Virus record (IMG/VR): IMGVR_UViG_3300032235_000348
Coordinates: 1 to 43,635 of that record
Direction: 5' to 3' (one strand)
DNA from: a virus
DNA: 43,635 bases
Shown: positions 4,027-32,701 of the stretch, one piece after another
How the letters are laid out: each line of letters opens with the position of its first letter
Position numbering within the stretch: the stretch's first letter is position 1
Translations under genes and position numbers: made by a program
The notes under the pieces: generated by a model
The model's input: only the letters and a program-made list of their open reading frames with translations
Database searches by the model: none
Told to the model about the DNA's origin: nothing

Positions 4027-7000
4027 ATGATACCATCTACAAAAAACCAGTTATTAGTCGCAGAAGATTGGACTAAAATATATCAAAGTTTCCGCAATGC
4101 GGACTTTCAGAGTTATGATTTTGATACGCTTCGTCGTACAATGATCAATTATCTCCGTGAAACTTATCCGGAGGAATTCAACGATTATATCGACTCAAGT
4201 GAATATATTGCTCTAATCGATCTTATTGCATATCTTGGGCAAAACTTAAGTTTTAGAATAGACTTAAATGCCCGAGAAAACTTCTTAGAAACTGCACAGC
4301 GTCGTGACAGCGTATTAAGACTTGCACAGCTTATTAGCTATAATCCTAAGCGTAATGTTCCAGCTAACGGTCTTTTAAAAATTGCAGCTATTCGTACAAC
4401 TGAAAATGTAATAGACGCAAACGGAGTTAACCTTGCTAATCAAGTAATTGGGTGGAATGATAACACTAACGTTAACTGGTATCAGCAATTTGTTAGCATT
4501 TTAAACTCTGCAATGCCTGGAGCATCTGTATTTGGTCGTCCTTATGATAAGAAAGTAATCAACGGAATCAATTCGGAACAATACAGAATTAATAATCAGG
4601 GCAATGACTTGCCAATCTTTACTCTATCTAAGCCAGTTAACGGTGTTCCGATGTCATTTGAGATTACTGGAGCAACATTTAGCGAGAAAGACTATATCTA
4701 TGAGCAGCCACCTTTACCTGGCGGCGCTCTTTCTTATATTTTTCAAAATGATAATCAAGGGTCTGGTTCACCTAACACTGGATTTTTTGTACATTTTAGG
4801 CAAGGATCTATTGCATCGTCACCGTTTTCAATTCCTGCACCGGTTGCAAATGAAATTGTAGCTATCAATGCAAACGGTATCAACAACGACGATGTATGGT
4901 TGTGGCAACTAGGGCCTAACGGCACTTACGATACGTTGTGGACTCGCATTGATTCTTTAGTTGGAAACAATGTTATCTATAATAATATAGCAAATGATGT
5001 TCGAACAGTATACACGGTATCGTCGAGAGCAAACGACCAGATTGATTTAAACTTTGCTGACGGCAGCTTTGGAGACTTACCTAAAGGTAATTTCCGTTTA
5101 TTTTATCGACAAAGCAACGGACAGACGTATTCTATTACACCTGATCAAATGTCCGGCGTAAATGTTACAATGAAATATGCTAACAAGTCTGGTGTAATTC
5201 ATCAATTATCGTTAACTCTTAGTTTGCAATACACTGTAACAAATAGCAGTGGTCCAGAATCAATTGGAAATATTAAAAATAAAGCACCTCAAACATACTA
5301 TCTACAGAATAGAATGATTACTGCTGAAGATTACAATATTGCTCCGCTTACTGCTGGAAATAATGTATTAAAAGTTAAGAGCATTAATCGAGTTTCAAGC
5401 GGAATTTCAAAATATTTTGAATTATCAGATGTTAGTGGAAAGTATTCGAGCATTGATATTTTTGCACACGATGGAATTTTGTACAAGGAAGAGAAGTTAC
5501 CTTCTTTTGAATTTAAATTCCAGTCAAGAAACCAAGTGTTTGCTGCACTTAAGAATCAACTTGCTCCGATTGTAAGTTCAAATAGTTTTAAAAACTTCTA
5601 TTTTGAAAAATATCCTAGACCTTCGTTCTCTACGTTAAACTATGATTGGGTAACGGTTACTAAAAAGTCAAATCAGACAACTGGTTATTTCCAAGATCAG
5701 TTTTCAGTTCCAGTACAGGTAGGATATTTTAGCAATAATAATGCTGCATATATTACTGCAGGAGCATTGGTAAAGTTTAACACTACTCCGAATGCTACAC
5801 CGACTTACGTTTGGTCAAAAGTAATTCAAGTAGTAGGCGACGGAGCAAACTCAGGAAAAGGCGCACTCAACGACGGCACCGGACCTGTAATTTTATCAGG
5901 AAAAATTCCAGCAGGCTCAGTAATTATTGAAGTGATTCCTACTTTTGTAACATCATTTAGCTATGCATTTGAAACACAGATGGTGAACCTATGCATGGCT
6001 CAAAGAAATTTTGGATTAAGTTTTGATAGACTTACTAGACAGTGGTTTATTATTGTTGATAGCAACTTAGATTCTAAGTCAGACTTTAGTTTAACTTACC
6101 AAGGCGATTCATCTAATGTGCAAAAGGACTCAAGTTGGATTATTAGATTTGAGTGGACTGGATCTTCTTATGCTGTAATATACAGATTATTAGAGTATAT
6201 TTTTGAAAGCGATAAGCAAACAGCATTTACTGTAAGCTCGTCAAAAACAAATTATGACTTTACAACTGACACAGTAATTAAAGATCGCATTGATGTATTA
6301 TCGATTAATACTCAACCAGCATCCTCTAACGCATTAGGTACAGACTATAGATGGCAAATTGATAGTTCTATAGTTGAGACAGACGGATATGTAGAACCTA
6401 AGAAAGTTGTTATTAGCTTTTATGATGCAAACAATGACGGCCAAATTGATACACCTGATGCTTTTGAAGAAATTGTTCCTCAAGAAGGAACTAACACTGG
6501 GTTTGTTTATTTTCAAATAACATCGAGCGGTAATCGATACACTCTAATGAGCGATCAAACTTTAATTTCTGCGTATGCATCTGAAGATTTAGTAGACTTA
6601 AATAGTATTGAAGACGGGGATTTGTTTTATTTTTATGAAACAAACACTGTTAAGCAGTGGAGCGCGACTTCGGCAACGTTTAATTTGAACACAAACTATT
6701 TTGCTAAACCAGGTAGAAGTAACATTAAGTTCCATTACATGCATAACACTTCAGAAGATAATAGAATAGACCCTAGTAAGTCAAACATTATTGATATCTA
6801 TGTATTAACATCAGATTACGATACTTCATACCGACGATATCTAACCAATGGTGGTACAGAACCATTAGCACCTACTAGCCAAAGTTTAGAAAATAATTTC
6901 TTAGAAACGTTAGAACCAATTAAGTCAATCTCGGATACTTTAATTTTCCATCCGGCAAACTATAAAGTATTGTTTGGCACTAAGGCAACTTCAAATCTGC

Positions 7001-7365
7001 AAGGAACTTTTAAAGCAGTTCGTAATCCTTCGAGAATTACCAGCGATAATGATTTAAAAACTAGAATCTTGTCAGCAATTAACGAATTCTTTAGCCTTGA
7101 TAATTGGGATTTTGGACAATCGTTTAATTTTACTGAGTTATCAACTTACGTATTGAACCAATTAACACCGGATATCTTGAATTTTATTATTGTGCCAAAA
7201 AATTCTAGTCTTCCATTCGGCAGCTTATTTGAAATATCATGCCAATCAAATGAAATACTAGTAAACGGTGCAACAGCAGACGATATTGAAATTATTGATG
7301 CAGTCACTGCATCGGAAATTAATGCAGTATCTCCTGTAATTACTAACACAAATGCGAGCTCATAA
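4027..7365 (+). CDS. 6: Baseplate wedge protein gp6-like, enlarged
   Basis: An 1112-residue protein, considerably longer than T4 gp6 (about 660). The N-terminal 120 residues carry the conserved wedge core with TYPEEFNDYIDSSEYIALID and RIDLNARENFLETAQRRDSV, typical of gp6 of marine T4-like phages. The C-terminal 100 residues contain the LKTRILSAINEFFSLDNWDFG motif shared with gp6/J-type baseplate proteins. The middle 700 residues are beta-rich and look like inserted domains. Residues 800-811 (DANNDGQIDTPD) match an EF-hand calcium loop. gp6 dimers form the inner ring of wedges that triggers sheath contraction. The gene follows gp25 after a 63-bp gap with a possible late promoter, and its stop is 2 bp before the next ATG. 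Confidence 0.87.
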   Translation: MIPSTKNQLLVAEDWTKIYQSFRNADFQSYDFDTLRRTMINYLRETYPEEFNDYIDSSEYIALIDLIAYLGQNLSFRIDLNARENFLETAQRRDSVLRLAQLISYNPKRNVPANGLLKIAAIRTTENVIDANGVNLANQVIGWNDNTNVNWYQQFVSILNSAMPGASVFGRPYDKKVINGINSEQYRINNQGNDLPIFTLSKPVNGVPMSFEITGATFSEKDYIYEQPPLPGGALSYIFQNDNQGSGSPNTGFFVHFRQGSIASSPFSIPAPVANEIVAINANGINNDDVWLWQLGPNGTYDTLWTRIDSLVGNNVIYNNIANDVRTVYTVSSRANDQIDLNFADGSFGDLPKGNFRLFYRQSNGQTYSITPDQMSGVNVTMKYANKSGVIHQLSLTLSLQYTVTNSSGPESIGNIKNKAPQTYYLQNRMITAEDYNIAPLTAGNNVLKVKSINRVSSGISKYFELSDVSGKYSSIDIFAHDGILYKEEKLPSFEFKFQSRNQVFAALKNQLAPIVSSNSFKNFYFEKYPRPSFSTLNYDWVTVTKKSNQTTGYFQDQFSVPVQVGYFSNNNAAYITAGALVKFNTTPNATPTYVWSKVIQVVGDGANSGKGALNDGTGPVILSGKIPAGSVIIEVIPTFVTSFSYAFETQMVNLCMAQRNFGLSFDRLTRQWFIIVDSNLDSKSDFSLTYQGDSSNVQKDSSWIIRFEWTGSSYAVIYRLLEYIFESDKQTAFTVSSSKTNYDFTTDTVIKDRIDVLSINTQPASSNALGTDYRWQIDSSIVETDGYVEPKKVVISFYDANNDGQIDTPDAFEEIVPQEGTNTGFVYFQITSSGNRYTLMSDQTLISAYASEDLVDLNSIEDGDLFYFYETNTVKQWSATSATFNLNTNYFAKPGRSNIKFHYMHNTSEDNRIDPSKSNIIDIYVLTSDYDTSYRRYLTNGGTEPLAPTSQSLENNFLETLEPIKSISDTLIFHPANYKVLFGTKATSNLQGTFKAVRNPSRITSDNDLKTRILSAINEFFSLDNWDFGQSFNFTELSTYVLNQLTPDILNFIIVPKNSSLPFGSLFEISCQSNEILVNGATADDIEIIDAVTASEINAVSPVITNTNASS

Positions 7366-7367
7366 TA

Positions 7368-10300
7368 ATGGCAAATAAAAGTATCAAACCAGTTGATGTT
7401 AACAACAGATCAAATACACGTCGTACTGCTGATCTGCTACCTGGATATTTAAGAACTGATAAAAATGAGAAATTTTTAGCAAACACTCTTGATCAATATA
7501 TTCAGCAGCCTCAGTTAGAAAGACTCAACGGGTTTGTTGGTAGTAAATTAAGTTTGAATTACGATCCAGAATCTGATACATATGTTAACACTGGCGGAAA
7601 ACTAAGAACTGATTATCAGTTAGAACCTTCGATGGTTATTCGCGACAACAATGCCGATATTAAAAAAGTTTCTGGATATGATGATTTAATCAACCAGCTA
7701 AGTTTTTACGGTGCAAATGTAAGTAATCTTGACAGACTATTTAGACCAGAATCATACTCGTATGATCCATGCATCGATTGGGACAAGTTTATTAACTATC
7801 GTCAATACTATTGGATGCCAAACGGTCCGGACTCTATTGAGATTACTGGACAACAAAAGAATACAGTTAGTACCTACACAGTAACTGACTCAGCAGACAA
7901 GCTGCATTTAATTTTTAATCCAGATGGGTTAACTCCTACTCCTTTGTTGACATTATACAGAGGTATGACTTATGTATTCAATATCAACAGTGAATATCCT
8001 TTTTACATTAAAACTGCATACGTAAAAGGTGTGCAGAATTTATATCCAGCTGCATCAAATCAAGGAACTAAGTCCGGTCAAATAATTCTTACCGTAGACG
8101 ATACAACTCCAAATGTTTTGTTCTATTTTGCAGAAGGTAATGACACTGCAATTGGTCAGTTTGCTGTTAAGCAACTATCAGAAAATACTGTACTTGATTT
8201 AGAACAAGAAGTTATTGGAAAACAAACGTATCAATCAGGTAACGGAGTAACTTTCTCTAACGGAATGAAAGTTCGATTTGTTGGGAATGTAACTCCTGAC
8301 AGTTATCTTGATAAAGATTTTATCATTGAAGGAGTTGGTAGTTCTATTAAATTAATAGAATTTGACACCCTTAAAACAGTTGGACTATCAACAACTAATA
8401 TCGACGTTGATTTTGATGCTACTCCTTTTGATGAATACCCGTTCGATGATTTCTCTTTCGTTCCATTAACGCCTGAGTACATCACTATTAACCGTGCAGC
8501 TCCTGATTTAAATTCTTGGAGTAGATATAATCGCTGGGTACATGAAGATGTTATTTCATCGTCTGCAAGCGCAAATAATGTTCCAGCAGTATTTGATGCT
8601 AGTATGCGAGCGCAGCGCCCGATTATTGAATTCATTGCAGGCATGCAACTTTTTAACTTTGGATCTAAAGCTAAACAAAATGTAGATCTTATTGATACAG
8701 TTACTAAGAGTGCATTTTCTACGTTTGAAGGAAGCGCAGGATTTTACATCGACGGAGTTCAAGTCGAAGAGGGATTCCGTGTTATTTTTAATGCAGATAC
8801 TGATCCGTTAGTTCGAGGAAGAATTTACAGAGTAACATTTTCCACGGTTAACAACCGACTAGTAGTTAATTTAGAAGAAGCCATTGACAGTGAACCTGTA
8901 CTAAACAATTCAGTAGTTGCAATTCGTGGAACTTCGAGTGCTGGAACTAACTGGTGGTATAACGGATCCGAATGGATATTTGGTCAGCAAAAAACTGAAT
9001 TAAATCAAGCTCCACTATTCGAGCTGTATGATAAAGACGGAAATCGTTTTGCTGATCAAAACTTTTATAATAGTTCGTTTAACGGAACTAAAATCTTTGG
9101 CTATTCTGTAGGAACAGGCACTCCTGACCCTGTACTAGGATTTCCGTTAAACTATCGAAATGTTGTAAATGTTGGCGACTATTTGTTTGAAAACTTCTTT
9201 ATGACAGATGAGTTTACAGACTTCACTAATGGCAATTTGTCCGTCCTTACAGTATCGGGAAATTATTTAAAATTTAATTCTGATGATAATGAAACATTTA
9301 GAGATGTTTGGACTCCGCAAAAAGAACAGAAAATTCCAATCATTCAATTTCAAGTAATTGAAAGTGCAACACCGTCTATTCAGATTACTTCTATAGAAAA
9401 TCCAGGATACGACCAAAGCATGACATTGGGAGTGTTTGTCAATGATGTTGAACAACTGCTCAATATTGATTATGTAATTGCTCGAACAGGATCCCAAGCA
9501 TATGTAGTATCAACTACTAGTTTTAGTAAAGATGATCGAGTATTAATTAAAGTATATTCTGTTAAAACGCCAATCAATGACGGGTATTATGAAGTTCCGA
9601 CAAATTTGTCAAACAACCCGCTTAACGGTCCAATCGGAGAATTTACATTTGCTGAATTAAGCGATCATGTAAAAACTATCACAGAAAATCATCCAACTTT
9701 TAACGGAGTTTTTCCAGGTACTGGTAATTTAAGAGATCTTGGCGATATAAATTCTTACGGTACTAGATTAGTAAGCCATAGTAACCCTGTAGGTTTTGCT
9801 CATTATTTTATCGGCACTGATGAAAATAATTTGATCTCTGCAATTCGTAGAGTATCGGACGATTATAACCAATTTAAAGCAAGTTTAATTAGACAGGTTG
9901 CAGACCTTAAAGCATTCCAAGATCCTATCATTATGCTAGACAAAGCATTGATGTTATTGTCAGCTAACAAGGATAAAACTTTTCCGTATCACTATTCCGA
10001 TATGGTTCCTTACGGAGAAAATTATACTGGTCGTAACTATACTGTTACTGATTCTAGAAACAAGCGTTACAGTTTATTATCAGTATTTGACAGCGAAGTA
10101 TTAAGTGAAAGAGCTGTTTTAGTTTATCTAAATGATACTTTGCTAGTAAAAGACACTGACTATGTAATTGAAAAATTTAGTCCTTCTATTCTAATTAATG
10201 CGCCTTTGGTTAAAGGAGACATAATCACAGTCAAGGATTATCAAAGCACAGTTGGAAACTATGTGCCACCTACTCCTACTAAACTCGGTTTATATCCTAA

Positions 10301-13300
10301 ATTTGTACCACAGATTTATGTAGACGATACGTTTGTTAGTGGGCCAAGACAAGTAATTCAAGGACACGACGGAAGCCTTACTGTTGCATACGGCGACTTT
10401 AGAGACAATGTAATTTTAGAATTCGAAAAGAGAATCTATAATAATATTAAAGTAAATTATAGATCTGATTTACTAAATGTAACGGAGTTTCTTCCAGGCG
10501 CATTTAGAAATTCACAGTTTACTAGAAACGAAACTAATGGAATTTTGTCTCCGTTATTCTTAAAGTGGACCGGAGCCTTTGGTGTTGACTTTAAATCAAA
10601 CGATACTTTTGATGAATTAAACTCGTTTACTTTTAATTATTCTTCAAATATTGACAGTATACACAAGAATTCATTGCCAGGCAACTGGAGAGGAATTTAC
10701 AAATATTTCTACGATACAGATAGACCGCATACTCATCCTTGGGAAATGCTAGGGTTTTCTAATAAGCCAGAATGGTGGGAATCAGAATACGGAGAAGCAC
10801 CTTACACTAGTGGCAATTTAATTCTGTGGAATGATTTAGAAGAAGGTAGGATTCTCCAAGGCGATCGAGCTGGAGTTGATCCTTTATATTCAAGACCAGG
10901 ACTAAGTGCTATTATCCCAGTTGACAGTAGCGGCAATCTTTTAAGTCCAACTGACACTGGATTAGCAACCACTCCGGTAATTAATCCCTCAGATCCAAAT
11001 AGAATTATTGTTCTTCGCAGCGAGCAAATTGCAGAAGACTGGAAATTTGGCGACGGCGCACCTGCCGAGAATGCATGGAAAAGAAGTAGCTACTGGCCGT
11101 TTGCAGTACAGGTATTGATGGCATTGTCTAATCCAGCTTCGTATGCTGCTAAAATGTTTGATACATCTAGGATGATTCTAAACAAAACAAATCAATATAG
11201 ATATGGAGAATCAAATGAATTTATATCTCCGTCGAAAGTTGCATTGTTTGGTGATATCGTTGACGGTAATCGAACCCTTGCTTCTGGGTATAGCGTATTT
11301 GTAATTGAACTTGGTACTACACGAGACAACAATTATCTAGAAAAAATAAAAGCCGATCTAAGCAATTTGAATTATAATTTGTCATTTAAGCTAGGCGGTT
11401 TTGGCAGTAAAGATAAGCTACAAATTTCAATCGATGCAGTTGACCCGGATAGTCCTTACCCAGGAGTTCTTGTTCCTTCTGAAGACTACAACATTATTTT
11501 CAATCAAAGCAGCCCGATCGAAAGTATAGGAATTTCTGGATTAATTATTCAGAAAGTTACCTCAGGATACTCAGTACGGGGATATGACAAATATCAGCCT
11601 TACTTTACAATTTTAAAACCATATGCTTCGAATGCTGATCAAACTTTAAGAGTCGGCGGCAGAACTGCTTCATACGTTCGTTGGAGAGCTGAAACAACAT
11701 ATAACGTAGGACAAATTGTATTTTATAACGATCGTTATTATCAGGTAAAGCAAAAGCATCTTACAGATACGACATTTAATGCATCATACTACCAGAGTTT
11801 GCCGTACTTGCCGACGCTGGGCGGAGTAGGTGTTCAGAGAAGAACTAAATTTGACACAGAAGAAACTATTGTTCCTTATGGAATTGTTTACTCTAATATT
11901 CAAGAAGTTTACGATTTAATTGTTGGTTACGGCAAGTGGTTAGTGTCAAAAGGATTTGTATTTGATGAATTCAATAATGATCTAGGACAGGTTTTAGATT
12001 GGGATTTTGCATCTAAAGAATTTCTATATTGGACTACACAAAATTGGGCAACTAATTCTGTAATCACTATTAGTCCGTTTGCTAACAAAGTCAAGTACTA
12101 TTCAACTCAAGGTGTTGTTGATAGTATTGTTAATAATTTTTATGAATATAGTTTATTAACAGCAGACGGCTCTCCGTTCTCAAGAAATGCGTTTGATATT
12201 GTTCGACTAGACGGCGAATTTACAATCTCAACGGTTAACACTAAAGAAGGCTTGTTCTTTGCTAGAATTAATATTGTGCAAAAAGAACATGCAGTAATCT
12301 TTAATAACTTTACTTTGTTCAATGACATTGTTTATGACGTTGATACAGGATATCGTCAGCGTCGAATAAGCCTTAAAGGATTTAGAACCGCAGATTGGAA
12401 TGGTGATTTTTACAGCCCTGGATTTGTGTTTGACCAAGCAAATATCAGTGATTGGAAGAAATACACAGATTATAAAATTGGCGAAGTAGTTCGATTCTCT
12501 GGAAAATATTATTCAGCTCCAAAGGGATTAGCAGGTACTAATGAGTTTAATTTCAACGATTGGGTTCTGCTAGCTGAAAGACCAGAAGCGCAGCTTCTTC
12601 CAAACTTTGAGTATAAAATTGGACAATTTGAAGATTTCTATAGTTTAGATATAGACAACTTTGACACTGGTCAGCAAAGCATGGCTCAGCATTTAACTGG
12701 CTATACTCCTCGTCCATATCTAAATAATATTATTGGAGATCCAATTGCTCAGTATAAGTTTTATCAAGGTTATATTAGAGAAAAAGGTACAAGAAATCCA
12801 CTAACAAAAATTTCTAAATCATCTCTAAATACATATCAAGCCAGCATTGATTTCAATGAGGAGTGGGCATTCCGTGTAGGATATTTTGGCGGATACAACA
12901 CATACCAAGAATTAGAAACTTCGTTGGATTCTACACAGTTTATTGAAAATCCTCAAATTATTGAATTTGTTGCAGAAAAACCTGTAGGAAATACTGACGT
13001 AGTTTATTATAAAGATGAAAGCGACATCATTATCTCTCCGGAAGATCTTGATATCAATCAAATTTTTCCAGTTATTGAAACTAGTGATGTAGAAGATATT
13101 TTCCAGCTACCGGTAGCTGGTTATGTAAGATTCGACGATGTTAACGGAACAGCTTATAATAAGAATAGCATTTTAGATATTGCAAACAACAGTGCATTAA
13201 TTGAAGGCAGTACTATTTGGTTAGGATTTAAAGAAAACAGTGATTGGGATGTGTTAAGGTACACTAAGGTACCGGCAATTATCACTAATGTTGAAATCTA

Positions 13301-16300
13301 CGAAGTTGGTCAATCGATACTGTTTACAACATCAGCAAATCATCAATTGACTGTTAATGACTTGATTAGTGTTAGTCGAATCTCAAATGATATTGATCAA
13401 TGCTACATAGTATCTGAAATTATTTCTCCCACACAGTTTACAGTATTTTCTACTCTTTACGATATTCCAATTCTTCCTGAAATTATATCGGGATTACTTT
13501 TTGTATTCAAATCCTCGAGATTATCTGACTTTTCTAAATTAACTGATATACCTTTCTTAGAAAGATGGCAAAACGGAGAAAAGATTTGGGTCGATGATAA
13601 CGGTTCGAATCTTTGGGCAGTGTATGAAAAAACTGAAAACTATGAGTCTTCGAAATATCCAAGCGTAGTTAATAAGCCTTCACAGCACTATGGTACAAAG
13701 ATCTTTGCCTCAGATTTTACCAGTACATTTATTGTGTCTGCTCCGGACTATTACGATGCAGTTGACAATCTTTTAGGAAGAGTATTCTTATTAGATAAAA
13801 ATGCAGACGGTTCTCCGAACTTAATTTTTAGCTATTCTTTAAATGACGAAAATGTTTATTTCGATAGTACAGCGACAAACTCTTTTGGATTTAGCTTAGA
13901 ATCTGATCCTATTAAGAAATTAATATTTGTCGGCGCTCCGAGAACAACTAATGTAAGAACTGCGTCAAGTTCAACTGTTGTTAATCCGAGTTTGTCGTTC
14001 CTAAGTTTTGATAATCAAGGAATTGTTAAGATTTCATTGTATGATGAGAGCGATATTGACGAAACTGCAAAAGTTGTAGTAACTACTCCAACTCCGGCAG
14101 ACAATGTACTTTTTGGATATGATTTAGCATACTCTACAATTACTAATTCTTTGTTAGTTGGTGCTCCTGGACAAAATAATAGTGCAGGATCAGTATACAA
14201 ATATACAATCATCTCGACAGCATCAACCGTGTCAACAATATATCAAGGTGCTATTGCACTTCCAACTTTAGCTTCTGGTTATCGTTTCGGATCGGCAATT
14301 GCTGGAAATGCTAGCTTAACTCGTTATGCAGTTTCTGCACCAGGATACATTAACACTGTTAATCCCGATTCTGCAGGTTCGAGAGGTGCAGTATATGTTT
14401 ATGATACATCGTTAGTTACTCCTCAAATAATTACAGGAGACACGCTATCATTGCCAGCATTGTTTGGACCTACTGATATATTTGGTTCCACAATAAAAAT
14501 GACCAAAGACGGTCAGTATTTGATAATCGGAAGTCCGCAAGCCTACGACAATTTACATGAAACACAAACAGGTGTAGTAGATATATTCAAGTGGAATGGA
14601 ACTCAGTTTACTCATCATCAAAGAATATATTCGCCAATTGATTCTAATGGTGCAAGTTTTGGATACGACATTTCGGTAGATGATGAAGGAGAGCTTTTAG
14701 TAATTTCGTCAATTGGTGATGGAAAGACTGCTGTTCCTACTTTTAACAAATATTCTGAAAGACTAGATCCAACAACAGCATTGGCAGAATATCAGTCAAT
14801 ATATATTAATGATCCGGAAAGTACTCCAACTAAGTTATTGACAACTTTTGACAGCGGCTCGACTGGCTTCTTTAGTACTATAATCGATGCTGGATCGGTA
14901 CATGCTTATAGTAGATTCGGTACTAAGTGGGCTCATTCTCAAGAGATTATTGATCCAGAAATTGATACTGGTAGTTTTTATGGAGCAAGTGTTGCTGCTA
15001 CAAACGATCTAGTTTACGTTGGCGCACCGGCCTTTTTAGATTCTTTAAACAACGGCAACGGACAGATTTACCTATTTTCTAAAATTGATCCTTCAATTAA
15101 GGGATGGAATTTACTAAGAGAGCAAGAGCCATTAGTTGATATTAATAAGATTAAACGAGCTCTTACAATAAACACTACCGATGATCAAATTCAAGACTAT
15201 ATCGATGTCATTGATCCAATTAAAGGTAATATCATCGGAACTGCAAGAGAAGAACTAAAATATATAACTTCTTATGATCCTGCAGTTTATAGTGTAGGTA
15301 TTGACGGTGTTAATGTTAGTGTTAACAGCAACTGGCTAGACTCGCATGTTGGCGAACTATGGTGGGATCTTTCAACTGTTAAGTACGTTTGGTACGAACA
15401 GGGAGAGCTAGAATATCGCAAGAATAACTGGAATAATGTTTTTCCTGGTAGCTCAATTGATGTGTACGAGTGGGTCAGAACAGAGTATCTTCCTACCGAA
15501 TGGAGTGCTATTGCAGACACCACTGACGGATTAGCTCGCGGTGTAAGCGGACAGCCAAAATTTGTAAACAATAATGTTGTATCAGTTAAGCAAGTATATA
15601 ATAATGTAGCAAATGCATTTACTAATGTTTACTATTATTGGGTTAAGAATAAAAATATTACACCATCGAATGTAGATGGACGTCGTAGACCTGCACTCGA
15701 AATTGCTAGAGAAATTGCAAATCCAACTGCTACCGGAAATAAATTCCTAGCAGTATTATCGCCCACGTCGATGATTGTTGCAAATTCAAAGTCTTCAATA
15801 ATGTCAGATTCAATTAATTTAAACATTAGTTTTGACTATATTAACGATGCAGCAAATCGTCACACAGAGTGGTTACTACTACAAGAAAACGATCCAAATA
15901 GTAGACCTAACTGGTTACTAGAAAAGAAACTATTTGATAGCTTGTTAGGACACGATTCGATTGGCAATCCGGTTCCTGATCCTCAGCTTCCGAGTAAGTT
16001 AAAATATGGTGTTGAAATTCGACCTAAGCAATCTCTGTTTGTAGATCGAAAAGAAGCATTAAGAAATATAATCGAATTTGCAAATAGTGTAGTATCGGCT
16101 GAACTAATCACCGATAGAGTAAACTTTACAAATCTTAACTCTAAAGATGAACTTCCTGCTGAAGAAACTTATGATTTACTAGTTGAAGATATTTTTGAAT
16201 TAGAATTAGTGCCAACATCGCTGTTACAAACTGCAGAATTATTAGCTAACATCGACAGCGACGGAAAAATAATTTCAGTATCAATTCTAAATCCAGGATA

Positions 16301-19300
16301 TGGTTATAAAACTCCGCCTACAATTTCTATATCAGGTCCAGGCACTGGCGCTGAGCTAGAATCGATTATTAATGACCAAGGTAGTATTACTGGCGTTATT
16401 GTTGTTAATGGTGGGTTTAATTTCACAGAATCACCAGAGCTAACTGTTAGACCATTTACTGTAGTAGTTCAAACTGATAAAAATCTAAACGGCAAATGGT
16501 CTCTTAATATTTGGGACAAAGATCAAAAGCAATGGGATATAATTAAAACCCAAGTTTATGATACTACTTTATATTGGGAATACATTGATTGGGCCAGCGC
16601 CGATTATAACGAACTAGCATCAATCGAATACAATGTTGAGTCAACCTACGAGATTAACGGGTTACTAGATATCGAAGAAGGAATGCATGTTAAAGTTCTT
16701 AACAGCGGCAACGGACGTTTTATAATCCTCCGAAGAACCGATGGAACATCTGGATCTTTTGATGATGATTGGGATATTGTTTATTCTCAAAATGGAACAA
16801 TTCGTTTCCTAGATTCTCTTTGGGATGTTAACGAATCATTCTATGCATGGGACGAGTTCGCTGGATTTGATCAGACTCGATTTGATCAAGCACCAGATCA
16901 AGAAATTTTCTATGCGTTAACTGCACTAAGAGATGACATATTCATCAATAATCTTAAGATTAATTGGAATAAGCTATTCTTCAAAGCTGTTCGTTATGCG
17001 TTTAGCGAGCAAACAACTTTAGATTGGGCATTTAAGACTACTTTTATTAGTGCTATTAACAACTTAGGTAGTCTAAATCAAGTTCCGACATATAAACTTC
17101 AAAATAGTCAAAATTATGAGGATTTTCTAGAAGAAATCAAGCCATATCACACTAAAATTAGAAGATTTACTGAGGTTTATACAGGAACTGAGTTTTCGCA
17201 GTCATACACTACAGACTTTGACTTACCTTCGTATTTCAACGAATTGACTCAAAAATTTGAAACTGTTAATTTTGGTAACGATTTATTGTTGTCATATCCT
17301 TGGAAATCTTGGTATGATAACTTTACATATGGAATAGAATCAATTGAAATTTATGACGGCGGAGCAGGTTACACAGAAGTTCCTGCAGTTCACATTGTTG
17401 CAGCTAACGGCGACACTGGACAAGGTGCTGAAGCAGTTGCTCATATTTCGCTAGGAAAAATATCTAGAATTGATATTATTAATCCAGGATATGGATATAC
17501 TTCTGCTCCAACTATTGTCTTAAACGGCGGCGCAACAGTAACTTCTTCTGCAAAAGTATATGCAAGACTTGGAAACTGCCCAGTAAGAATCAACCATTTA
17601 ACTATGAAATTTGATAGAGTTTCGGGAGTTAGAGAAATTGGTAACAAATATTACACTGATGTATTTGTTAGCAACGGAGAAGATGTTACCTATGATTTAA
17701 CTTGGGTTCCAATTCCAGATAAAACTGAAATTACAATGACTCTTAACGGCGTCTTACAGCTAATGGATAGTTACACTATTGAATATAGCGAAAGAAAATA
17801 TAGTCCACAGTCAAATACAACTTATACTAAAAAGTTTGCAACTCTAAGATTATTGTTTACGCCACAGAACGGAGATACAATTGAAATAACTTATCCTAAG
17901 AATTTGGATTTCTATACAGCAGTTGATCGAATTGAAGATTATTATGCACCAGGTTCTGGAATGCCGGGCAAAGAGTCTGATCAGTTAATGACAGGCTTGT
18001 CATATCCTGGACTTCAAATTGATACACTACCATTTGATGCAACAGGCGGCTGGGATGTAGTACCTTACGGAGTTTCATCGTGGGATAACTATTCGCTTGA
18101 GTCGGGTTACATGTCGTTCTCGACTACAGCTCAGACCACGCAAACATTTACTTTAACCAACATGATTATTACTACCGGTACACAAGTAAATGTTTATCTT
18201 AACGGACTACGAGTAGACAGCACATTATCAAATGCAGTTGTTCCTACCTTAATTGGTAAAGGAACAGGTGCAGTTGACTACATCGAAATTCAAGGTCCAG
18301 GAGCAGGATATTCTTCAACATTTACTTCGGTGACAATTTCTGCTCCTAATAATCTAAGCGGTACACAAGCAACAGCAAATGCTATTGTAGTTGATGGTTC
18401 GATTGCTGGCATTAGCATTCTTAATAAAGGCAGTGGATATACAGAAGATCCTGTAGTAACAATTACTGGACCTTCTACAATTCAAGCATATGCTAAGGCT
18501 GTTCTTAAAGCTGAATTTACTACGTCGACGTCGACAGTTATTAGAACTGAAGTAGTAATTCCAGGAGGAACATCAACGTTTGCTACTACTTCTACCCTTG
18601 TTGTCTTTAGATATTCGACCAGCGATGGTACATTACAGCCTACTGATTTAGGAAATCTTGATTCAGTTATTAGTGGCGGAGACCTAGCTTATACCACTGC
18701 ACTTGGATTGACACCGAGCGAAATTATATTAGATGGTGGATCAACATCGACACAATTTATATCTGGTATGAACGATGATGGATTCTTAAATCCTTACAAC
18801 AGTTATGCTCCGGAGGAATGTGTTCCTGGACAGGTACAAGAAGCAATCGGAATCAGCGTATATGATCAGCCAGTTAATACTTCGCCGATTATTGCTAATA
18901 AAAATTATATCGTTGACGGATCGACATCGACATTTAGTCTAGGAGTTAAGCCGTCCAATTACGATTCTGTAATTGCAATCTTTAATAATTCTAAATTAAC
19001 TTTGTCAGAATTCACTATCGATTATAAGAATAACACATTTACTTTTAACTCAGCAAATCCGGGAACAGGTTGGCTTAGCTTAACATCTATGCAGCTAGCC
19101 GGAATTAGACTAATCGATCACTATACTGATACTACTGAAACAACGTCTTCGATTGTTACATCAGTTGCATATTCAGATGTTGGAAGTAATGGGTCGAGTG
19201 TGTATGTAACAATAAATGGAATTCCTGCAGCAGCCGGAGATGCTTACACTATTGAAAATTATCAATCAAGAGCAAAGCTAAGTTTCTTCCAAACTGGTAC

Positions 19301-20747
19301 AATTCAAGCATATTTGTTCAATGCTCCAGTTAAAGCATTTAGTGAAATCAATGAGCAAATTATTACAGCTTATAATAACGATTCCGCTTTTGTATTATAT
19401 CAATCCCCAGGAGTTGCAGGTCCCCTCCATAGTCAAGTAATTGTTACTTTAGATGGATTGAGGTTAAATCCTCCAGTTACTACATATTATCAAGTAACTG
19501 ATAATCAGTTAACATTTGATGTTAGCGAGTCTATTAGATTCCCATCAAGGGGAGTTAGCCTTGCAGATCTTGAAGTTTATGTTAATGGCGTTCGAGAAGA
19601 AGTTCCAGGAATTTGGAGATTAACTCAAACTAAAAATCAGATAACCTTTACTCAAGGATCTTTAACAACAGGCGATGTAGTAGCAATTGTAGTTAAGAAG
19701 GGTCATGATTACCTCATCGAAAACGATCAATTAGTATTAGTAAATCCAGTTGAAGCTACTTCTGAAATTCGAATTACAACGTTTACTAATCATGATCCGT
19801 CCTTTATTAGAACTGAAAGATTTACGGGTAACCCAACAAATCAATACCCTATGCAAAGAGCAGCACTAGATTCGTCTTATGTTTGGGTAACTTATAACGG
19901 AACACCGTTAATGACTGACGTAGATTACCGAGTAAGTACTGACGGTTATACAGTCATTGTTAGAGACGGAATTTTTGAATCTATCAATGATGCAGTAGTG
20001 ATCACTAGCTTTGCAAGTCAAGAAATTAGAATGTCTTCTTATAGAATTTTCAAAGACTTGCTAGGCAGAACTCATTACAAGAGATTGAGCAACGAAAATA
20101 CTACATACCTTACTCAAGACTTGTATACTACATCTACATCAATTGTTGTTGAAGATGCAAGCGTGTTAACTCCGCCAGATGTTAATTCTAAAATACCAGG
20201 CGTTGTTTTAATTGACGGCGAAAGAATTGAGTTCTTTACAGTAGTTGGAAATACATTAGGGCAATTGAGAAGAGGCACACTCGGCACTATGCCAGCTTCA
20301 GTTTATCTATCAGGCAAGCCAGTAATTGACCAAGGTGTAATTCAAACAATGCCAGTTAGAGATTTTGCTCAAACAACTGCAACAATCATTTCAACGTCGA
20401 CCCAGGTGACATTTGATTTAAGTAACAGCATCAGATTTAATACATCAGTTGCGTTTACTGATCAGGTCGAAGTTCGATACGGCGGAAGAAAATTATTGAA
20501 GCCAAACTTATACACCGTGCAACACGATTACGATTTATCGTATGATAGCACATCGACAGCTGATACAGTGTTAGTACCAGAGTTTTCGATCTCAACATCG
20601 AGTGTATTAACTTTGAATTTTGCTCCTGACGCAGGCGTAAAATTAGAAGTTATTGCAAGAAATTCTACTGTATTTGATCAGACAACAATTAATTTTATAC
20701 GTGAAAGGTCGGCTTCGTTGCCAGATAAATATCGATATGGACAATAA
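7368..20747 (+). CDS. Giant virion structural protein (4459 aa) with FG-GAP-like propeller and carbohydrate-binding-like modules
   Basis: The N-terminus (LLPGYLRTDKNEKFLANTLD, then YQLEPSMVIRDNN and FINYRQYYWMPNGPDSIEI) resembles the very large structural proteins (often named VrlC) next to gp6 in T4-like marine phages. Residues about 2115-2575 hold six clear and one weak V/I-G/S-A/S-P motifs (near 2124, 2188, 2264, 2322, 2387, 2446, 2551), spaced mostly 60-75 residues, as in integrin-type FG-GAP beta-propellers. Two W-x4-5-Y-x2-G-x2-V modules (about 1438 and 1695) resemble CBM5/12 chitin-binding folds. Five GxGY repeats lie near 2974, 3328, 3371, 3641 and 3684. The C-terminus has IDGERIEFFTVVGNTLGQLR, common in phage tail proteins. 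Probably a baseplate-periphery or fibre protein contacting host glycans; the role is inferred. No frameshift is visible over 13.4 kb. Confidence 0.85.
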   Translation: MANKSIKPVDVNNRSNTRRTADLLPGYLRTDKNEKFLANTLDQYIQQPQLERLNGFVGSKLSLNYDPESDTYVNTGGKLRTDYQLEPSMVIRDNNADIKKVSGYDDLINQLSFYGANVSNLDRLFRPESYSYDPCIDWDKFINYRQYYWMPNGPDSIEITGQQKNTVSTYTVTDSADKLHLIFNPDGLTPTPLLTLYRGMTYVFNINSEYPFYIKTAYVKGVQNLYPAASNQGTKSGQIILTVDDTTPNVLFYFAEGNDTAIGQFAVKQLSENTVLDLEQEVIGKQTYQSGNGVTFSNGMKVRFVGNVTPDSYLDKDFIIEGVGSSIKLIEFDTLKTVGLSTTNIDVDFDATPFDEYPFDDFSFVPLTPEYITINRAAPDLNSWSRYNRWVHEDVISSSASANNVPAVFDASMRAQRPIIEFIAGMQLFNFGSKAKQNVDLIDTVTKSAFSTFEGSAGFYIDGVQVEEGFRVIFNADTDPLVRGRIYRVTFSTVNNRLVVNLEEAIDSEPVLNNSVVAIRGTSSAGTNWWYNGSEWIFGQQKTELNQAPLFELYDKDGNRFADQNFYNSSFNGTKIFGYSVGTGTPDPVLGFPLNYRNVVNVGDYLFENFFMTDEFTDFTNGNLSVLTVSGNYLKFNSDDNETFRDVWTPQKEQKIPIIQFQVIESATPSIQITSIENPGYDQSMTLGVFVNDVEQLLNIDYVIARTGSQAYVVSTTSFSKDDRVLIKVYSVKTPINDGYYEVPTNLSNNPLNGPIGEFTFAELSDHVKTITENHPTFNGVFPGTGNLRDLGDINSYGTRLVSHSNPVGFAHYFIGTDENNLISAIRRVSDDYNQFKASLIRQVADLKAFQDPIIMLDKALMLLSANKDKTFPYHYSDMVPYGENYTGRNYTVTDSRNKRYSLLSVFDSEVLSERAVLVYLNDTLLVKDTDYVIEKFSPSILINAPLVKGDIITVKDYQSTVGNYVPPTPTKLGLYPKFVPQIYVDDTFVSGPRQVIQGHDGSLTVAYGDFRDNVILEFEKRIYNNIKVNYRSDLLNVTEFLPGAFRNSQFTRNETNGILSPLFLKWTGAFGVDFKSNDTFDELNSFTFNYSSNIDSIHKNSLPGNWRGIYKYFYDTDRPHTHPWEMLGFSNKPEWWESEYGEAPYTSGNLILWNDLEEGRILQGDRAGVDPLYSRPGLSAIIPVDSSGNLLSPTDTGLATTPVINPSDPNRIIVLRSEQIAEDWKFGDGAPAENAWKRSSYWPFAVQVLMALSNPASYAAKMFDTSRMILNKTNQYRYGESNEFISPSKVALFGDIVDGNRTLASGYSVFVIELGTTRDNNYLEKIKADLSNLNYNLSFKLGGFGSKDKLQISIDAVDPDSPYPGVLVPSEDYNIIFNQSSPIESIGISGLIIQKVTSGYSVRGYDKYQPYFTILKPYASNADQTLRVGGRTASYVRWRAETTYNVGQIVFYNDRYYQVKQKHLTDTTFNASYYQSLPYLPTLGGVGVQRRTKFDTEETIVPYGIVYSNIQEVYDLIVGYGKWLVSKGFVFDEFNNDLGQVLDWDFASKEFLYWTTQNWATNSVITISPFANKVKYYSTQGVVDSIVNNFYEYSLLTADGSPFSRNAFDIVRLDGEFTISTVNTKEGLFFARINIVQKEHAVIFNNFTLFNDIVYDVDTGYRQRRISLKGFRTADWNGDFYSPGFVFDQANISDWKKYTDYKIGEVVRFSGKYYSAPKGLAGTNEFNFNDWVLLAERPEAQLLPNFEYKIGQFEDFYSLDIDNFDTGQQSMAQHLTGYTPRPYLNNIIGDPIAQYKFYQGYIREKGTRNPLTKISKSSLNTYQASIDFNEEWAFRVGYFGGYNTYQELETSLDSTQFIENPQIIEFVAEKPVGNTDVVYYKDESDIIISPEDLDINQIFPVIETSDVEDIFQLPVAGYVRFDDVNGTAYNKNSILDIANNSALIEGSTIWLGFKENSDWDVLRYTKVPAIITNVEIYEVGQSILFTTSANHQLTVNDLISVSRISNDIDQCYIVSEIISPTQFTVFSTLYDIPILPEIISGLLFVFKSSRLSDFSKLTDIPFLERWQNGEKIWVDDNGSNLWAVYEKTENYESSKYPSVVNKPSQHYGTKIFASDFTSTFIVSAPDYYDAVDNLLGRVFLLDKNADGSPNLIFSYSLNDENVYFDSTATNSFGFSLESDPIKKLIFVGAPRTTNVRTASSSTVVNPSLSFLSFDNQGIVKISLYDESDIDETAKVVVTTPTPADNVLFGYDLAYSTITNSLLVGAPGQNNSAGSVYKYTIISTASTVSTIYQGAIALPTLASGYRFGSAIAGNASLTRYAVSAPGYINTVNPDSAGSRGAVYVYDTSLVTPQIITGDTLSLPALFGPTDIFGSTIKMTKDGQYLIIGSPQAYDNLHETQTGVVDIFKWNGTQFTHHQRIYSPIDSNGASFGYDISVDDEGELLVISSIGDGKTAVPTFNKYSERLDPTTALAEYQSIYINDPESTPTKLLTTFDSGSTGFFSTIIDAGSVHAYSRFGTKWAHSQEIIDPEIDTGSFYGASVAATNDLVYVGAPAFLDSLNNGNGQIYLFSKIDPSIKGWNLLREQEPLVDINKIKRALTINTTDDQIQDYIDVIDPIKGNIIGTAREELKYITSYDPAVYSVGIDGVNVSVNSNWLDSHVGELWWDLSTVKYVWYEQGELEYRKNNWNNVFPGSSIDVYEWVRTEYLPTEWSAIADTTDGLARGVSGQPKFVNNNVVSVKQVYNNVANAFTNVYYYWVKNKNITPSNVDGRRRPALEIAREIANPTATGNKFLAVLSPTSMIVANSKSSIMSDSINLNISFDYINDAANRHTEWLLLQENDPNSRPNWLLEKKLFDSLLGHDSIGNPVPDPQLPSKLKYGVEIRPKQSLFVDRKEALRNIIEFANSVVSAELITDRVNFTNLNSKDELPAEETYDLLVEDIFELELVPTSLLQTAELLANIDSDGKIISVSILNPGYGYKTPPTISISGPGTGAELESIINDQGSITGVIVVNGGFNFTESPELTVRPFTVVVQTDKNLNGKWSLNIWDKDQKQWDIIKTQVYDTTLYWEYIDWASADYNELASIEYNVESTYEINGLLDIEEGMHVKVLNSGNGRFIILRRTDGTSGSFDDDWDIVYSQNGTIRFLDSLWDVNESFYAWDEFAGFDQTRFDQAPDQEIFYALTALRDDIFINNLKINWNKLFFKAVRYAFSEQTTLDWAFKTTFISAINNLGSLNQVPTYKLQNSQNYEDFLEEIKPYHTKIRRFTEVYTGTEFSQSYTTDFDLPSYFNELTQKFETVNFGNDLLLSYPWKSWYDNFTYGIESIEIYDGGAGYTEVPAVHIVAANGDTGQGAEAVAHISLGKISRIDIINPGYGYTSAPTIVLNGGATVTSSAKVYARLGNCPVRINHLTMKFDRVSGVREIGNKYYTDVFVSNGEDVTYDLTWVPIPDKTEITMTLNGVLQLMDSYTIEYSERKYSPQSNTTYTKKFATLRLLFTPQNGDTIEITYPKNLDFYTAVDRIEDYYAPGSGMPGKESDQLMTGLSYPGLQIDTLPFDATGGWDVVPYGVSSWDNYSLESGYMSFSTTAQTTQTFTLTNMIITTGTQVNVYLNGLRVDSTLSNAVVPTLIGKGTGAVDYIEIQGPGAGYSSTFTSVTISAPNNLSGTQATANAIVVDGSIAGISILNKGSGYTEDPVVTITGPSTIQAYAKAVLKAEFTTSTSTVIRTEVVIPGGTSTFATTSTLVVFRYSTSDGTLQPTDLGNLDSVISGGDLAYTTALGLTPSEIILDGGSTSTQFISGMNDDGFLNPYNSYAPEECVPGQVQEAIGISVYDQPVNTSPIIANKNYIVDGSTSTFSLGVKPSNYDSVIAIFNNSKLTLSEFTIDYKNNTFTFNSANPGTGWLSLTSMQLAGIRLIDHYTDTTETTSSIVTSVAYSDVGSNGSSVYVTINGIPAAAGDAYTIENYQSRAKLSFFQTGTIQAYLFNAPVKAFSEINEQIITAYNNDSAFVLYQSPGVAGPLHSQVIVTLDGLRLNPPVTTYYQVTDNQLTFDVSESIRFPSRGVSLADLEVYVNGVREEVPGIWRLTQTKNQITFTQGSLTTGDVVAIVVKKGHDYLIENDQLVLVNPVEATSEIRITTFTNHDPSFIRTERFTGNPTNQYPMQRAALDSSYVWVTYNGTPLMTDVDYRVSTDGYTVIVRDGIFESINDAVVITSFASQEIRMSSYRIFKDLLGRTHYKRLSNENTTYLTQDLYTTSTSIVVEDASVLTPPDVNSKIPGVVLIDGERIEFFTVVGNTLGQLRRGTLGTMPASVYLSGKPVIDQGVIQTMPVRDFAQTTATIISTSTQVTFDLSNSIRFNTSVAFTDQVEVRYGGRKLLKPNLYTVQHDYDLSYDSTSTADTVLVPEFSISTSSVLTLNFAPDAGVKLEVIARNSTVFDQTTINFIRERSASLPDKYRYGQ

Positions 20748-21396
20748 TAAACAACACTCACTATCTCAGGAAGAGCGCAATAATTCAGCTAATGAGCATG
20801 GAAAATTGCATATTCAGGGTCATATTAAAATTTATGATCCTGAAACAAAAGAGGTATTCATTGATAAGCGCAATGCAATCCACTACGAAAATTTTAGTAT
20901 TGGATTAGCTCAAGCTATGAGTAATCAAGGCCAAGGCTTTATTGCAGAAATGTGTTTTGGCAATGGCGGAAGTAGAATTGATCCAACAGGAATTATCACT
21001 TATTTGACGCCTAACTCAGTTGGGTTGAATGCAAGTTTATACAACCAAACTTACATTAAAAACATAGATGCAAGTAGCTCTTTAAACTTAGATCCTGCTA
21101 GAAATTTTATGGAAGTTCGTCACATTACAGGAACAGCATACACTGATATTTTAGTAAGTTGTTTGTTGGATTATGGCGAGCCTGCAGGCCAACAAGCGTT
21201 TGATAATAGCACAAATATGGATGGCTCATATATTTTTGACGAGCTAGGACTTCGTGCTTACAGCCCAGATAACATTGAAGGAAATGGGATGTTACTAACT
21301 CATGTAATTTTCCACCCTGTACAAAAGAGTCTTAATAGATTATTGCAGATTGATTATACAGTGAGAATTCAAAGTCTTACTAACGGGGCATTTTAA
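20737..21396 (+). CDS. Conserved T4-like virion/baseplate protein, unknown role
   Basis: I place the start at ATG 20737 (MDNNKQHSLSQEE), which overlaps the preceding stop by 11 bp. The longer open frame back to 20653 lies inside the end of the giant gene and is not needed. The 219-residue product is soluble, with no membrane segment. It contains GHIKIYDPETKEVFIDKRNA near its start and HPVQKSLNRLLQIDYTVRIQ near its end. From memory these resemble a protein found beside the large structural gene in marine T4-like phages. It may fill the place of a T4 wedge protein such as gp8, but I cannot show homology. Its stop overlaps the next ATG (TAATG), so it is co-translated with the first fibre gene. 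Confidence 0.75.
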   Translation: MDNNKQHSLSQEERNNSANEHGKLHIQGHIKIYDPETKEVFIDKRNAIHYENFSIGLAQAMSNQGQGFIAEMCFGNGGSRIDPTGIITYLTPNSVGLNASLYNQTYIKNIDASSSLNLDPARNFMEVRHITGTAYTDILVSCLLDYGEPAGQQAFDNSTNMDGSYIFDELGLRAYSPDNIEGNGMLLTHVIFHPVQKSLNRLLQIDYTVRIQSLTNGAF

Positions 21397-23243
21397 TGAG
21401 CTATATTATATATTATTCAGATCCTGCAAAAAATGCTACTCCGATCATAGTTTCAGACGGAACTAAGAATTCGCAGTCTAGCAGCTTGACTCTTATTGGT
21501 AGAAACTATCCAGGCTATGGTCAAGCGATTGGCGAGAATTTAATACATCTTTTAGAAAATTTCTCAAGTCCAACTCCGCCTAACAATCCAATTGAAGGAC
21601 AGTTATGGTTTGATACTAGCGATCCGAATAATAAGAAATTAAGAATTAATGACGGCGGAGTTAGCGCATCTCGTTGGTCTCCGATCAATGGTATTTTCCA
21701 ACAACCAAACGAACCAACTAATGTAAAAAATGGTGACATTTGGGTCGACACTGCTCGCCAGCAATTGAATTTTTATAATGGTACTAGTTTTACATTAGTT
21801 GGTCCTAGCTATTCAAGCACTACTAGAACAGGCAGCTATCCTGAGTCAGTTTTAGATACAACAGGTGTTGAGCACAATGTTATTATTCAATATGTAAATG
21901 ATGTTGCAGTTGAAATAATTGCAACTGAAGATTTTACACCGAATCCAATTATTGAAGGATTTACTGCAATTGAAGCAGGTGTTAATATATCTTCTCTTAA
22001 CGTTGGCACATCGCAAGAACCGAATATTCCTAAGATTAACGGAGTAGCAGAATCGGCATATTACTTGCAGCTTTCGGTTCCGACACCACAAAAAGTTATT
22101 GCTGACTCATTCATGAGGAAAGATATTGATCAAAGATTAACTGGATCGCTGAGCATTGCTGCAGATGGCAACGCTCTCCGTATTGGTAGCGATCCTACTT
22201 TCATTATCGAACGAAGAAGCCAGTATAATGCTGCTTTTGTAAACACTTATAATAATGGACAGTTTACATTTGAAATTGCAGGAACTAATAGACCTGTAAT
22301 GATCATGGACGGTGCAAATCGTAGAGTAACAATTAACGACCAGTTAACTGAAACATCACAGTCCGGGCTTTCGGTATACGGCTCAATTAGTGCTACAAAC
22401 AGTGCAACATTTAATACATTGTATGTAACATCGTCAGCAACAGACATCAATCAAGTACCTAATAATGCTATACAAGTTGTTGGAGGTGTCGGTATTGGCG
22501 GCACGTTAGTCGTAACTGCTGAGCACATTTTGCGCGGCCCGTTAGTGATAGGTGAGACACAAATTCCTCCTATTGTTCCGCAAAACACTGTTTCTAACAT
22601 TATTCTTCCAACTAAAAATGAAGAATATAATATGGGAGATCCTAACCTTCGTTGGCAAAATGTTTATGCAAGAGTTTTCCAAGCAGGTGCCGGACAAGAA
22701 GCACAATTTGTAGGCGTAGCTTCTTCTGCAACGTTCTTAAGGTCGCCATCGGCGGTAACTATTAACGGTGATGTAACATCTGTACCGACATCTTTTAGAG
22801 GCGGTGGCCAAGCATTGTCAGTTGCTATCACAGCAACCGGTGCAATGATTATCAATAAAACATCATTAGTAACTTCAACAGGAACTGATTGTTTACTAGT
22901 TGCAAATCCGTCAGATGGTAAACTATATAAGCAATCTAAGAGAGATTTCTTAAAAGACGCAAACTATTATGACGTACTAAATCCTTTAGTTAATATTGGA
23001 TATAGTACCCCTGCTGGCAGCTTTGTTCCATTAGGTACAATGTTGCCGTATGCAGGAGACATTGCTCCGCCTGGGTGGCTTTTATGCGATGCATCAAATA
23101 TTAACGTAGATCCTAAGTATCAAAATCTACGTGATTTGATCGGCAAAAAATACGACCCAACTGGTGTAAACTTCTTGTTGCCTAACTTAGCAAGTAAGTT
23201 AGCTTCAGGGACCACCGCAATTAACTATATTATAAAGTATTAA
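21396..23243 (+). CDS. Tail fibre-like protein 1, tail-collar C-terminus
   Basis: A 615-residue protein, first of four tandem paralogues. Residues about 1-130 form the shared N-terminal domain: SSLTLIGRNYPGYGQAIGEN, IHLLENFSSP, GQLWFDT and a second GDIWVDT repeat ending in FTLVGP. This conserved part probably docks the fibre on the baseplate or on another fibre. The middle is beta-rich, with the N-x-G-x-x-x-x-RW-x-x-V-(Y/F)-A motif (MGDPNLRWQNVYAR, near nt 22630) typical of fibre shafts. The C-terminus has PYAGDIAPPGWLLCDA followed by LRDLIGKKY, a phage tail-collar domain. The start overlaps the previous stop as TAATG. The specific receptor is unknown. Confidence 0.85.
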   Translation: MSYIIYYSDPAKNATPIIVSDGTKNSQSSSLTLIGRNYPGYGQAIGENLIHLLENFSSPTPPNNPIEGQLWFDTSDPNNKKLRINDGGVSASRWSPINGIFQQPNEPTNVKNGDIWVDTARQQLNFYNGTSFTLVGPSYSSTTRTGSYPESVLDTTGVEHNVIIQYVNDVAVEIIATEDFTPNPIIEGFTAIEAGVNISSLNVGTSQEPNIPKINGVAESAYYLQLSVPTPQKVIADSFMRKDIDQRLTGSLSIAADGNALRIGSDPTFIIERRSQYNAAFVNTYNNGQFTFEIAGTNRPVMIMDGANRRVTINDQLTETSQSGLSVYGSISATNSATFNTLYVTSSATDINQVPNNAIQVVGGVGIGGTLVVTAEHILRGPLVIGETQIPPIVPQNTVSNIILPTKNEEYNMGDPNLRWQNVYARVFQAGAGQEAQFVGVASSATFLRSPSAVTINGDVTSVPTSFRGGGQALSVAITATGAMIINKTSLVTSTGTDCLLVANPSDGKLYKQSKRDFLKDANYYDVLNPLVNIGYSTPAGSFVPLGTMLPYAGDIAPPGWLLCDASNINVDPKYQNLRDLIGKKYDPTGVNFLLPNLASKLASGTTAINYIIKY

Positions 23244-23247
23244 AAAT

Positions 23248-25122: not shown

Positions 25123-25132
25123 GGAAAATTTA

Positions 25133-27511: not shown

Positions 27512-27531
27512 TATTGGTTAAACCGATAGAT

Positions 27532-27564
27532 TGTTATCTAAGGATGAACGGTAAATAGTACATT
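27532..27564 (+). promoter_or_regulatory. Leader element with AAGGA and a four-codon mini-ORF (copy 2)
   Basis: The 53-bp gap 27512-27564 separates fibres 3 and 4. TGTTATCTAAGGA (27532-27544) matches the gp6 leader at 12 of 13 bases. ATG AAC GGT AAA TAG (27544-27558) follows, then six bases and the real ATG at 27565. GGTAAATA (27550-27557) only loosely resembles a late -10 box and would give no leader. A GGTTAAACC palindrome precedes the element. No convincing terminator is seen in the gap. Confidence 0.4.
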
Positions 27565-32590: not shown

Positions 32591-32622
32591 GTGATTCTCC
32601 GTATGATTTAAAATACTTCCGC

Positions 32623-32652
32623 ATTATATACGGCGGGTAGGGTATAAGTCAA
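32623..32652 (-). promoter_or_regulatory. Sigma70-type promoter of the VWA gene
   Basis: On the minus strand TTGACT (32652-32647), an 18-bp spacer and TATAAT (32628-32623) form a near-consensus promoter in the 111-bp gap after the MoxR terminator. The start would be near 32616, giving a leader of about 26 nt with GGAGA before the ATG at 32590. Confidence 0.82.
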
Positions 32653-32669
32653 GTAATGTTTTGATAAAA

Positions 32670-32693: not shown

Positions 32694-32701
32694 TCTCGGT
32701 T

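Follow-up and report, generated by a model that had tools for sequence, protein, structure and literature searches.

A predicted integrin-like FG-GAP beta-propeller within a giant baseplate-region protein of uncultured phages

Residues 2083–2572 of a giant virion protein are predicted to form one seven-bladed FG-GAP_2 beta-propeller, which would have the integrin alpha fold without its calcium sites and which, as judged from sequence comparison, appears to be an insertion in a phage scaffold protein, with a conserved segment on either side. The protein is encoded in a 43,635-base IMG/VR virus record, possibly a fragment, whose whole length is referred to here as the window. The phage is uncultured and probably jumbo-sized. 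Taken together, an inserted propeller of integrin fold that faces outward and contacts the host is, in our assessment, the probable explanation. Its fold part comes from a structural model, and we infer its exposure and ligand binding. The baseplate genes and the giant ORF of the window are as follows:

1345–3513, + strand: gp5-like baseplate hub protein (phrog_13211, E = 5e-50; Phage_base_V below cut-off)
3526–3963, + strand: T4 gp25-like baseplate wedge protein (phrog_43, phrog_261)
4027–7365, + strand: T4 gp6-like baseplate wedge protein, directly upstream of the giant ORF (phrog_10646, E = 3e-297; phrog_219; Pfam Gp6-like below cut-off)
7368–20747, + strand: giant virion protein of 4459 amino acid residues, the propeller-bearing scaffold, orthologous to PA5oct gp355, Atu_ph07 gp180, 121Q 582 and RaK2 ORF070

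Similar to those of PA5oct and 121Q, these genes are in the order of hub, gp25, gp6 and giant protein, and the giant ORF, which directly follows the gp6-like gene, lies in the position that gene 7 has in T4. No similarity between the giant protein and T4 gp7 was detected (hhalign probabilities <1%, phmmer E > 0.3 and no match to Pfam Baseplate_wedge), and the giant protein was rejected as a T4 gp7 homolog on all three counts. Thus, its place in the baseplate is assigned from gene order, and our claim is limited to the gp7 slot. The giant protein matched phrog_10938 with 1145 bits and was 28–31% identical to the proteins of PA5oct and Atu_ph07 over ~1350 amino acid residues of the query stretch. 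Its orthologs were found in PA5oct, Atu_ph07, Phosso, 121Q, RaK2, GAP32 and other phages, and the phage clade of the window is related to RaK2, PA5oct and Atu_ph07. The record of the PA5oct ortholog, gp355, carries a mark of detection by ESI-MS/MS. Gene order and this mark support the assignment of the giant protein to the baseplate and, with it, the baseplate-region location given in the original prediction. PA5oct gp355, Atu_ph07 gp180, 121Q 582 and RaK2 ORF070, all of phrog_10938, have an orthologous scaffold (~24–31% identity over long stretches) and the same gene order. Different from the giant protein of the window, however, they lack the propeller, as does the ortholog of GAP32.

The region originally predicted to hold the propeller, 13710–15092, is in frame with the ORF at 7368–20747 and corresponds to residues 2115–2575. 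Six motifs of the GAP type, defined as [hydrophobic]2-[GSA][AS]P, start at residues 2122, 2187, 2263, 2321, 2386, and 2550. When the residues of this region were shuffled 10,000 times, these motifs numbered 0.25 on average and 4 at most, and six were never reached. In the remaining ~3,900 residues of the giant protein, they were found only at residues 1714 and 3377. Moreover, seven [FY]Gxx[hydrophobic] motifs were found at residues 2108, 2173, 2249, 2307, 2372, 2431, and 2538, and the distance from the FG motif to the GAP motif within each repeat was ~14 residues. The seventh GAP position, in blade 6, is decayed to VISSIGD, which agrees with the six clear motifs and one weak motif noted from the sequence beforehand. 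The FG-to-FG steps were 65, 76, 58, 65, 59, and 107 residues, of which the last is longest because blade 6 has a long loop. A spacing of mostly 60–75 residues, as noted originally, therefore holds roughly (58–76 residues) except for this last step.

Pfam FG-GAP_2 (PF14312) matched the propeller region in three stretches with an E-value of 2.1e-10 and 39.9–41 bits, compared with a curated cut-off of 23. When the whole 4459-residue protein was searched, the E-value was 4.2e-5 and the score, 24.1 bits, was barely above the cut-off of 23. Such a score would suit chance motifs or low-complexity beta repeats with no real propeller. This reading, to which we give practically no credence, is refuted by the shuffles, which never reached the observed motif count, by the FG-GAP_2 matches in all 37 aligned relatives (best E-value of 1e-26) and by the high model confidence and the fold matches described below.

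The alignment supplied to AlphaFold2 consisted of the propeller stretch and 36 relatives from IMG/VR (37 rows). The resulting model was all-beta with a mean pLDDT of 81.7 and a pTM of 0.84, and its strands formed seven blades of four strands each, the N-terminal strand included. The predicted propeller and its parts, of which blades 1–6 were delimited by model strands and motifs and blade 7 by model strands and the Pfam match, are as follows:

13614–15083, + strand: complete FG-GAP_2 seven-bladed beta-propeller, residues 2083–2572 (Pfam, AlphaFold2 and Foldseek)
13614–13637, + strand: N-terminal strand WAVYEKTE, residues 2083–2090 (strand 2084–2087 in the AlphaFold2 model)
13698–13835, + strand: blade 1, residues 2111–2156, motif SAP
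13893–14081, + strand: blade 2, residues 2176–2238, motif GAP
14124–14255, + strand: blade 3, residues 2253–2296, motif GAP
14298–14435, + strand: blade 4, residues 2311–2356, motif SAP
14490–14630, + strand: blade 5, residues 2375–2421, motif GSP
14655–14948, + strand: blade 6, residues 2430–2527, decayed motif VISSIGD (14700–14720)
14988–15083, + strand: blade 7, residues 2541–2572, motif GAP, best single Pfam FG-GAP_2 match

The long loop of blade 6 has low confidence at about 14745–14834. It also contains a TFDSGSTGF motif (14844–14870), of which T.FD...T.F was strongly conserved in nearly all relatives. In the N-terminal strand, the W was invariant and the K nearly invariant among the 37 relatives. 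Because the pattern of the outer strands in the other blades recurs in WAVYEKT, the domain starts at residue 2083 (13614) and not at residue 2115. The region predicted originally lay inside the propeller, but its start was ~30 residues late and missed this strand. We propose that, in the model, the N-terminal strand joins blade 7 as its outer strand and would close the ring in this way. The strand order and the full-length fold matches suggest that the modeled propeller forms a closed seven-bladed ring. Structure prediction, the check suggested originally, hence did not return the non-closed fold that would have spoken against a propeller.

Fold comparison with Foldseek placed integrin alpha structures of the PDB at all of ranks 1–29, with matches that spanned the whole model, E-values as low as 7e-13, TM scores up to 0.67 by target length and identities of 11–16%. 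The seven-bladed, integrin-like architecture predicted originally is thus borne out by the model. The model of a relative with CBM inserts had a pLDDT of 81.4 and a pTM of 0.82, and integrins were again the best matches. In addition, a sequence profile used without structure matched integrin alpha-4 and alpha-M with an E-value of ~4e-4, which is weak but significant.

Similar to the phage propeller, the integrin alpha head (alpha5, alphaV, and alphaM) has seven blades with FG..GAP motifs. DxDxDG calcium motifs are a hallmark of integrin blades. These calcium cages, found in blades 4–7 of integrin alpha, are however practically absent from the phage propeller, in which one off-position look-alike, DKNADG, was found at residue 2143; 25 of the 37 aligned sequences had no DxDxDG at all. 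Therefore, the phage propeller resembles integrins in fold and repeat family and not in integrin chemistry. Integrin alpha also has a beta-subunit partner, whereas the phage propeller is part of a virion protein. An I domain inserted into the propeller is tolerated by integrin alpha, similar to the CBMs in the phage relatives.

The relatives were found with the whole giant protein as query. With the window propeller alone, nothing was found in phage records or IMG/VR, owing to the small number of close relatives and the rapid divergence of the domain. The non-redundant set of homologs from IMG/VR and cultured phages comprised 226 proteins, of which 182 had the propeller. The full propeller profile identified 174 of them, and the other 8, whose divergent propellers were missed by this first profile, were recovered by a blade-level profile (at least 4 blades). 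All seven blades scored >5 bits in 93 relatives, and no blade did so in shuffled protein controls. The 44 homologs without the propeller, a few of which are cut short upstream, included those of all nine cultured phages, which matched neither the propeller profile nor the blade profile. Thus, the search for the same region in other large phage structural proteins, as suggested originally, succeeded among the homologs at large but in none of the nine cultured orthologs. At the propeller site of 121Q, the flanking segments nearly meet, with 18 residues between the extrapolated anchors; the sites of PA5oct and Atu_ph07 hold about 118 and about 1,341 residues of other sequence, respectively. As the orthologs without the propeller evidently infect hosts, the scaffold does not need it.

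The tree of 185 rows, for which no root was inferred, was built from the segment after the propeller and is therefore independent of the trait. Presence and absence of the propeller required only 3 changes on this tree, compared with 38 in shuffles. The nine cultured phages were all on the propeller-less side, and the propeller group contained no cultured phage. The pattern is compatible with one gain followed by two losses (L199; L123 together with L146), and the distribution is consistent with one gain or with one deep loss elsewhere.

The mean identities of three neighboring segments were 58.2, 52.6 (propeller), and 59.6%, and the propeller was lowest in 381 of 448 pairs, which are non-independent. 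The extra divergence of the propeller relative to its flanks is modest. Between the window and its relative L001, the identity was 48% in the propeller and 57–69% elsewhere in the protein, which makes the propeller the most divergent region. CBM5/12 modules were identified within the propeller region in 31 of the 37 aligned relatives, mainly in loops after GAP motifs and after blade 3 as read from the alignment consensus; in many relatives, the loop after the GAP motif of blade 2 holds one. No CBM5/12 was found inside the propeller of the window or of its nearest relatives, L001, L025, and L002. The scaffold of the giant protein contains the following module:

11682–11765, + strand: CBM5/12-like module, residues 1439–1466 (Pfam PF02839, E = 1.2e-7, two stretches)

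A second CBM5/12-like copy in the scaffold, read by eye, starts at residue 1694 (12447). The CBM part of the alignment profile also matched a protein of the Anabaena contractile injection system entry 7b5h. Given this match, the CBM5/12-type modules may, by analogy, be structural.

In the explanation that we favor, the propeller would stand on the outside of the baseplate, its loops, which bear CBM5/12 in relatives, would be presented to host-surface glycans or proteins, and adsorption would be helped by the propeller next to the separate tail fibers. We favor this outward, host-contacting role because of the faster divergence, the CBM5/12 inserts and the gp7-slot protein of phage S-MbCM6 with FG-GAP and lectin-like domains (see below). 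On these sequence features, the host-surface contact suggested in the original prediction is plausible, although the absence of integrin cation cages speaks against it.

Propellers are common protein-protein docking platforms, and T4 gp7 is near the attachment of gp10 and gp11. Alternatively, then, the propeller could be a structural connector, in which a docking platform of the wedge holds the separate tail fibers (ORFs at 21396–29829) and makes no host contact. Four neighboring fiber-like ORFs share N-terminal PHROG matches and something must hold them, the scaffold is conserved on both sides of the propeller, and a CBM-like domain is also found in the Anabaena contractile injection system entry. 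In PA5oct, however, a fiber gene and several virion genes lie at the corresponding location and no propeller is present, so that such a dock is not generally needed. Moreover, divergence is faster in the propeller than in the scaffold around it, and the inserted carbohydrate-binding modules suit sugar binding better. We thus consider a connector unlikely. The CBM5/12 modules of most aligned relatives would also fit a passive role as a surface decoration, in which the propeller, by binding to polysaccharide, mucus or particles in the environment, would raise host encounter without a specific receptor; other phages have Ig-like and lectin-like decorations that serve in this way. The position in a baseplate protein close to the tail tip, however, suits host contact more, and a purely passive role seems quite improbable to us.

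Returning to host contact, it may be that this large clade of uncultured phages gained an integrin-type propeller once in a core wedge protein of the contractile tail. The propeller, whose loops would bear exchangeable CBMs, may since have served the baseplate as an integral receptor-binding organ separate from the fibers. We put this forward tentatively and at somewhat less than an even chance. As predicted here, the best-known cell-adhesion fold of animals forms part of the tail in a widespread phage group, of which the collections searched contain no cultured member, and one site of a conserved baseplate scaffold is marked as a plug-in place for putative host-contact modules. The propeller also provides a concrete domain for receptor-binding tests in phages that metagenomes alone have revealed. 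Should host binding be demonstrated, the propeller could help predict the hosts of these phages.

FG-GAP repeats are found in the database annotation of phage nt-1 and uncultured phages and also in giant viruses. The 'FG-GAP repeat protein' of Vibrio phage nt-1, a 407-residue virion protein of cyanophage S-TIM5 and the 'hemagglutinin' of Atu_ph07 belong to the same repeat family or fold as the window propeller. Different from the latter, however, they are separate and small and not embedded in the gp7-slot scaffold. A 3692-residue protein of Phosso and the FG-GAP proteins of giant viruses also share the repeat family or fold, but that of Phosso is in another large protein. In this second giant protein of Sinorhizobium phage Phosso (PV764938 57900–68978; L332:3803–8630), residues 1–1609 contain at least 16 FG-GAP_2 stretches. 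Despite these, the gp7-slot protein of Phosso has no propeller. Attachment or entry roles were proposed for prasinovirus FG-GAP proteins in a 2024 paper, in which its prasinovirus was described as possibly the first virus with confirmed FG-GAP repeats (PMC11467894).

The nearest known architecture is that of gp080 of Synechococcus phage S-MbCM6 (NC_019444 50779–71847; L339:6780–27848), which has 7022 amino acid residues and is encoded between the gp6 and gp9 genes. Similar to the window protein, gp080 is in the same gene slot, is of giant size and possesses FG-GAP_2 (E = 1.8e-40), along with two LamG, YHYH and Reelin-like modules. Unlike the window protein, however, gp080 matches T4 gp7 and Pfam Baseplate_wedge, and the two proteins share only GxGY repeats and, by blade profile, the propeller. 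The two propellers were likely acquired independently. The gp7 slot also collects adhesion-type domains in cyanophages, as in S-MbCM6.

Propellers of other families are found in the baseplates of PhiKZ, whose gp131 has a C-terminal seven-bladed propeller (4GBF) for which receptor contact was proposed, and of phage phi11, whose RBP has a five-bladed propeller for which receptor contact was modeled (PMC4901313). The Pfam match of gp131 is RCC1-like and not FG-GAP, and gp131 was rejected as a relative of the window propeller, to which it shows no similarity. The phi11 propeller has five blades, compared with seven in the window propeller. Thus, phages with FG-GAP domains and baseplates with propellers of other families have both been recorded before. 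In the open-access literature searched, no phage baseplate protein was described as having an FG-GAP propeller.

A GxGY...P repeat module is found at 16287–16307, 17478–17498, and 18420–18440, inside the ORF at 7368–20747. It matched many places in S-MbCM6 gp080 and also phrog_460 'head closure Hc2', a label that probably reflects a mobile beta module rather than a function. Downstream of the giant ORF, four consecutive ORFs at 21396–29829 (+ strand) encode proteins of 615, 624, 792, and 754 amino acid residues that have a common N-terminal domain, phrog_15511, and differ in their remainders. Three of them also match phrog_14394, and a Collar domain is found close to the end of the first. They are probably paralogous fibers on one attachment domain. 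At 31352–33781 (– strand), a MoxR-like AAA ATPase adjoins a DUF2201 metallopeptidase/VWA protein, for which the PHROGs name of 'HNH endonuclease' looks like a misnomer. In cyanophage S-TIM5, an annotated ATPase is likewise beside an 'HNH endonuclease', shortly before the FG-GAP protein of this phage. Finally, a gene of the IMP dehydrogenase/GMP reductase family (Pfam E = 8e-69) is found at 37560–38654 (– strand).
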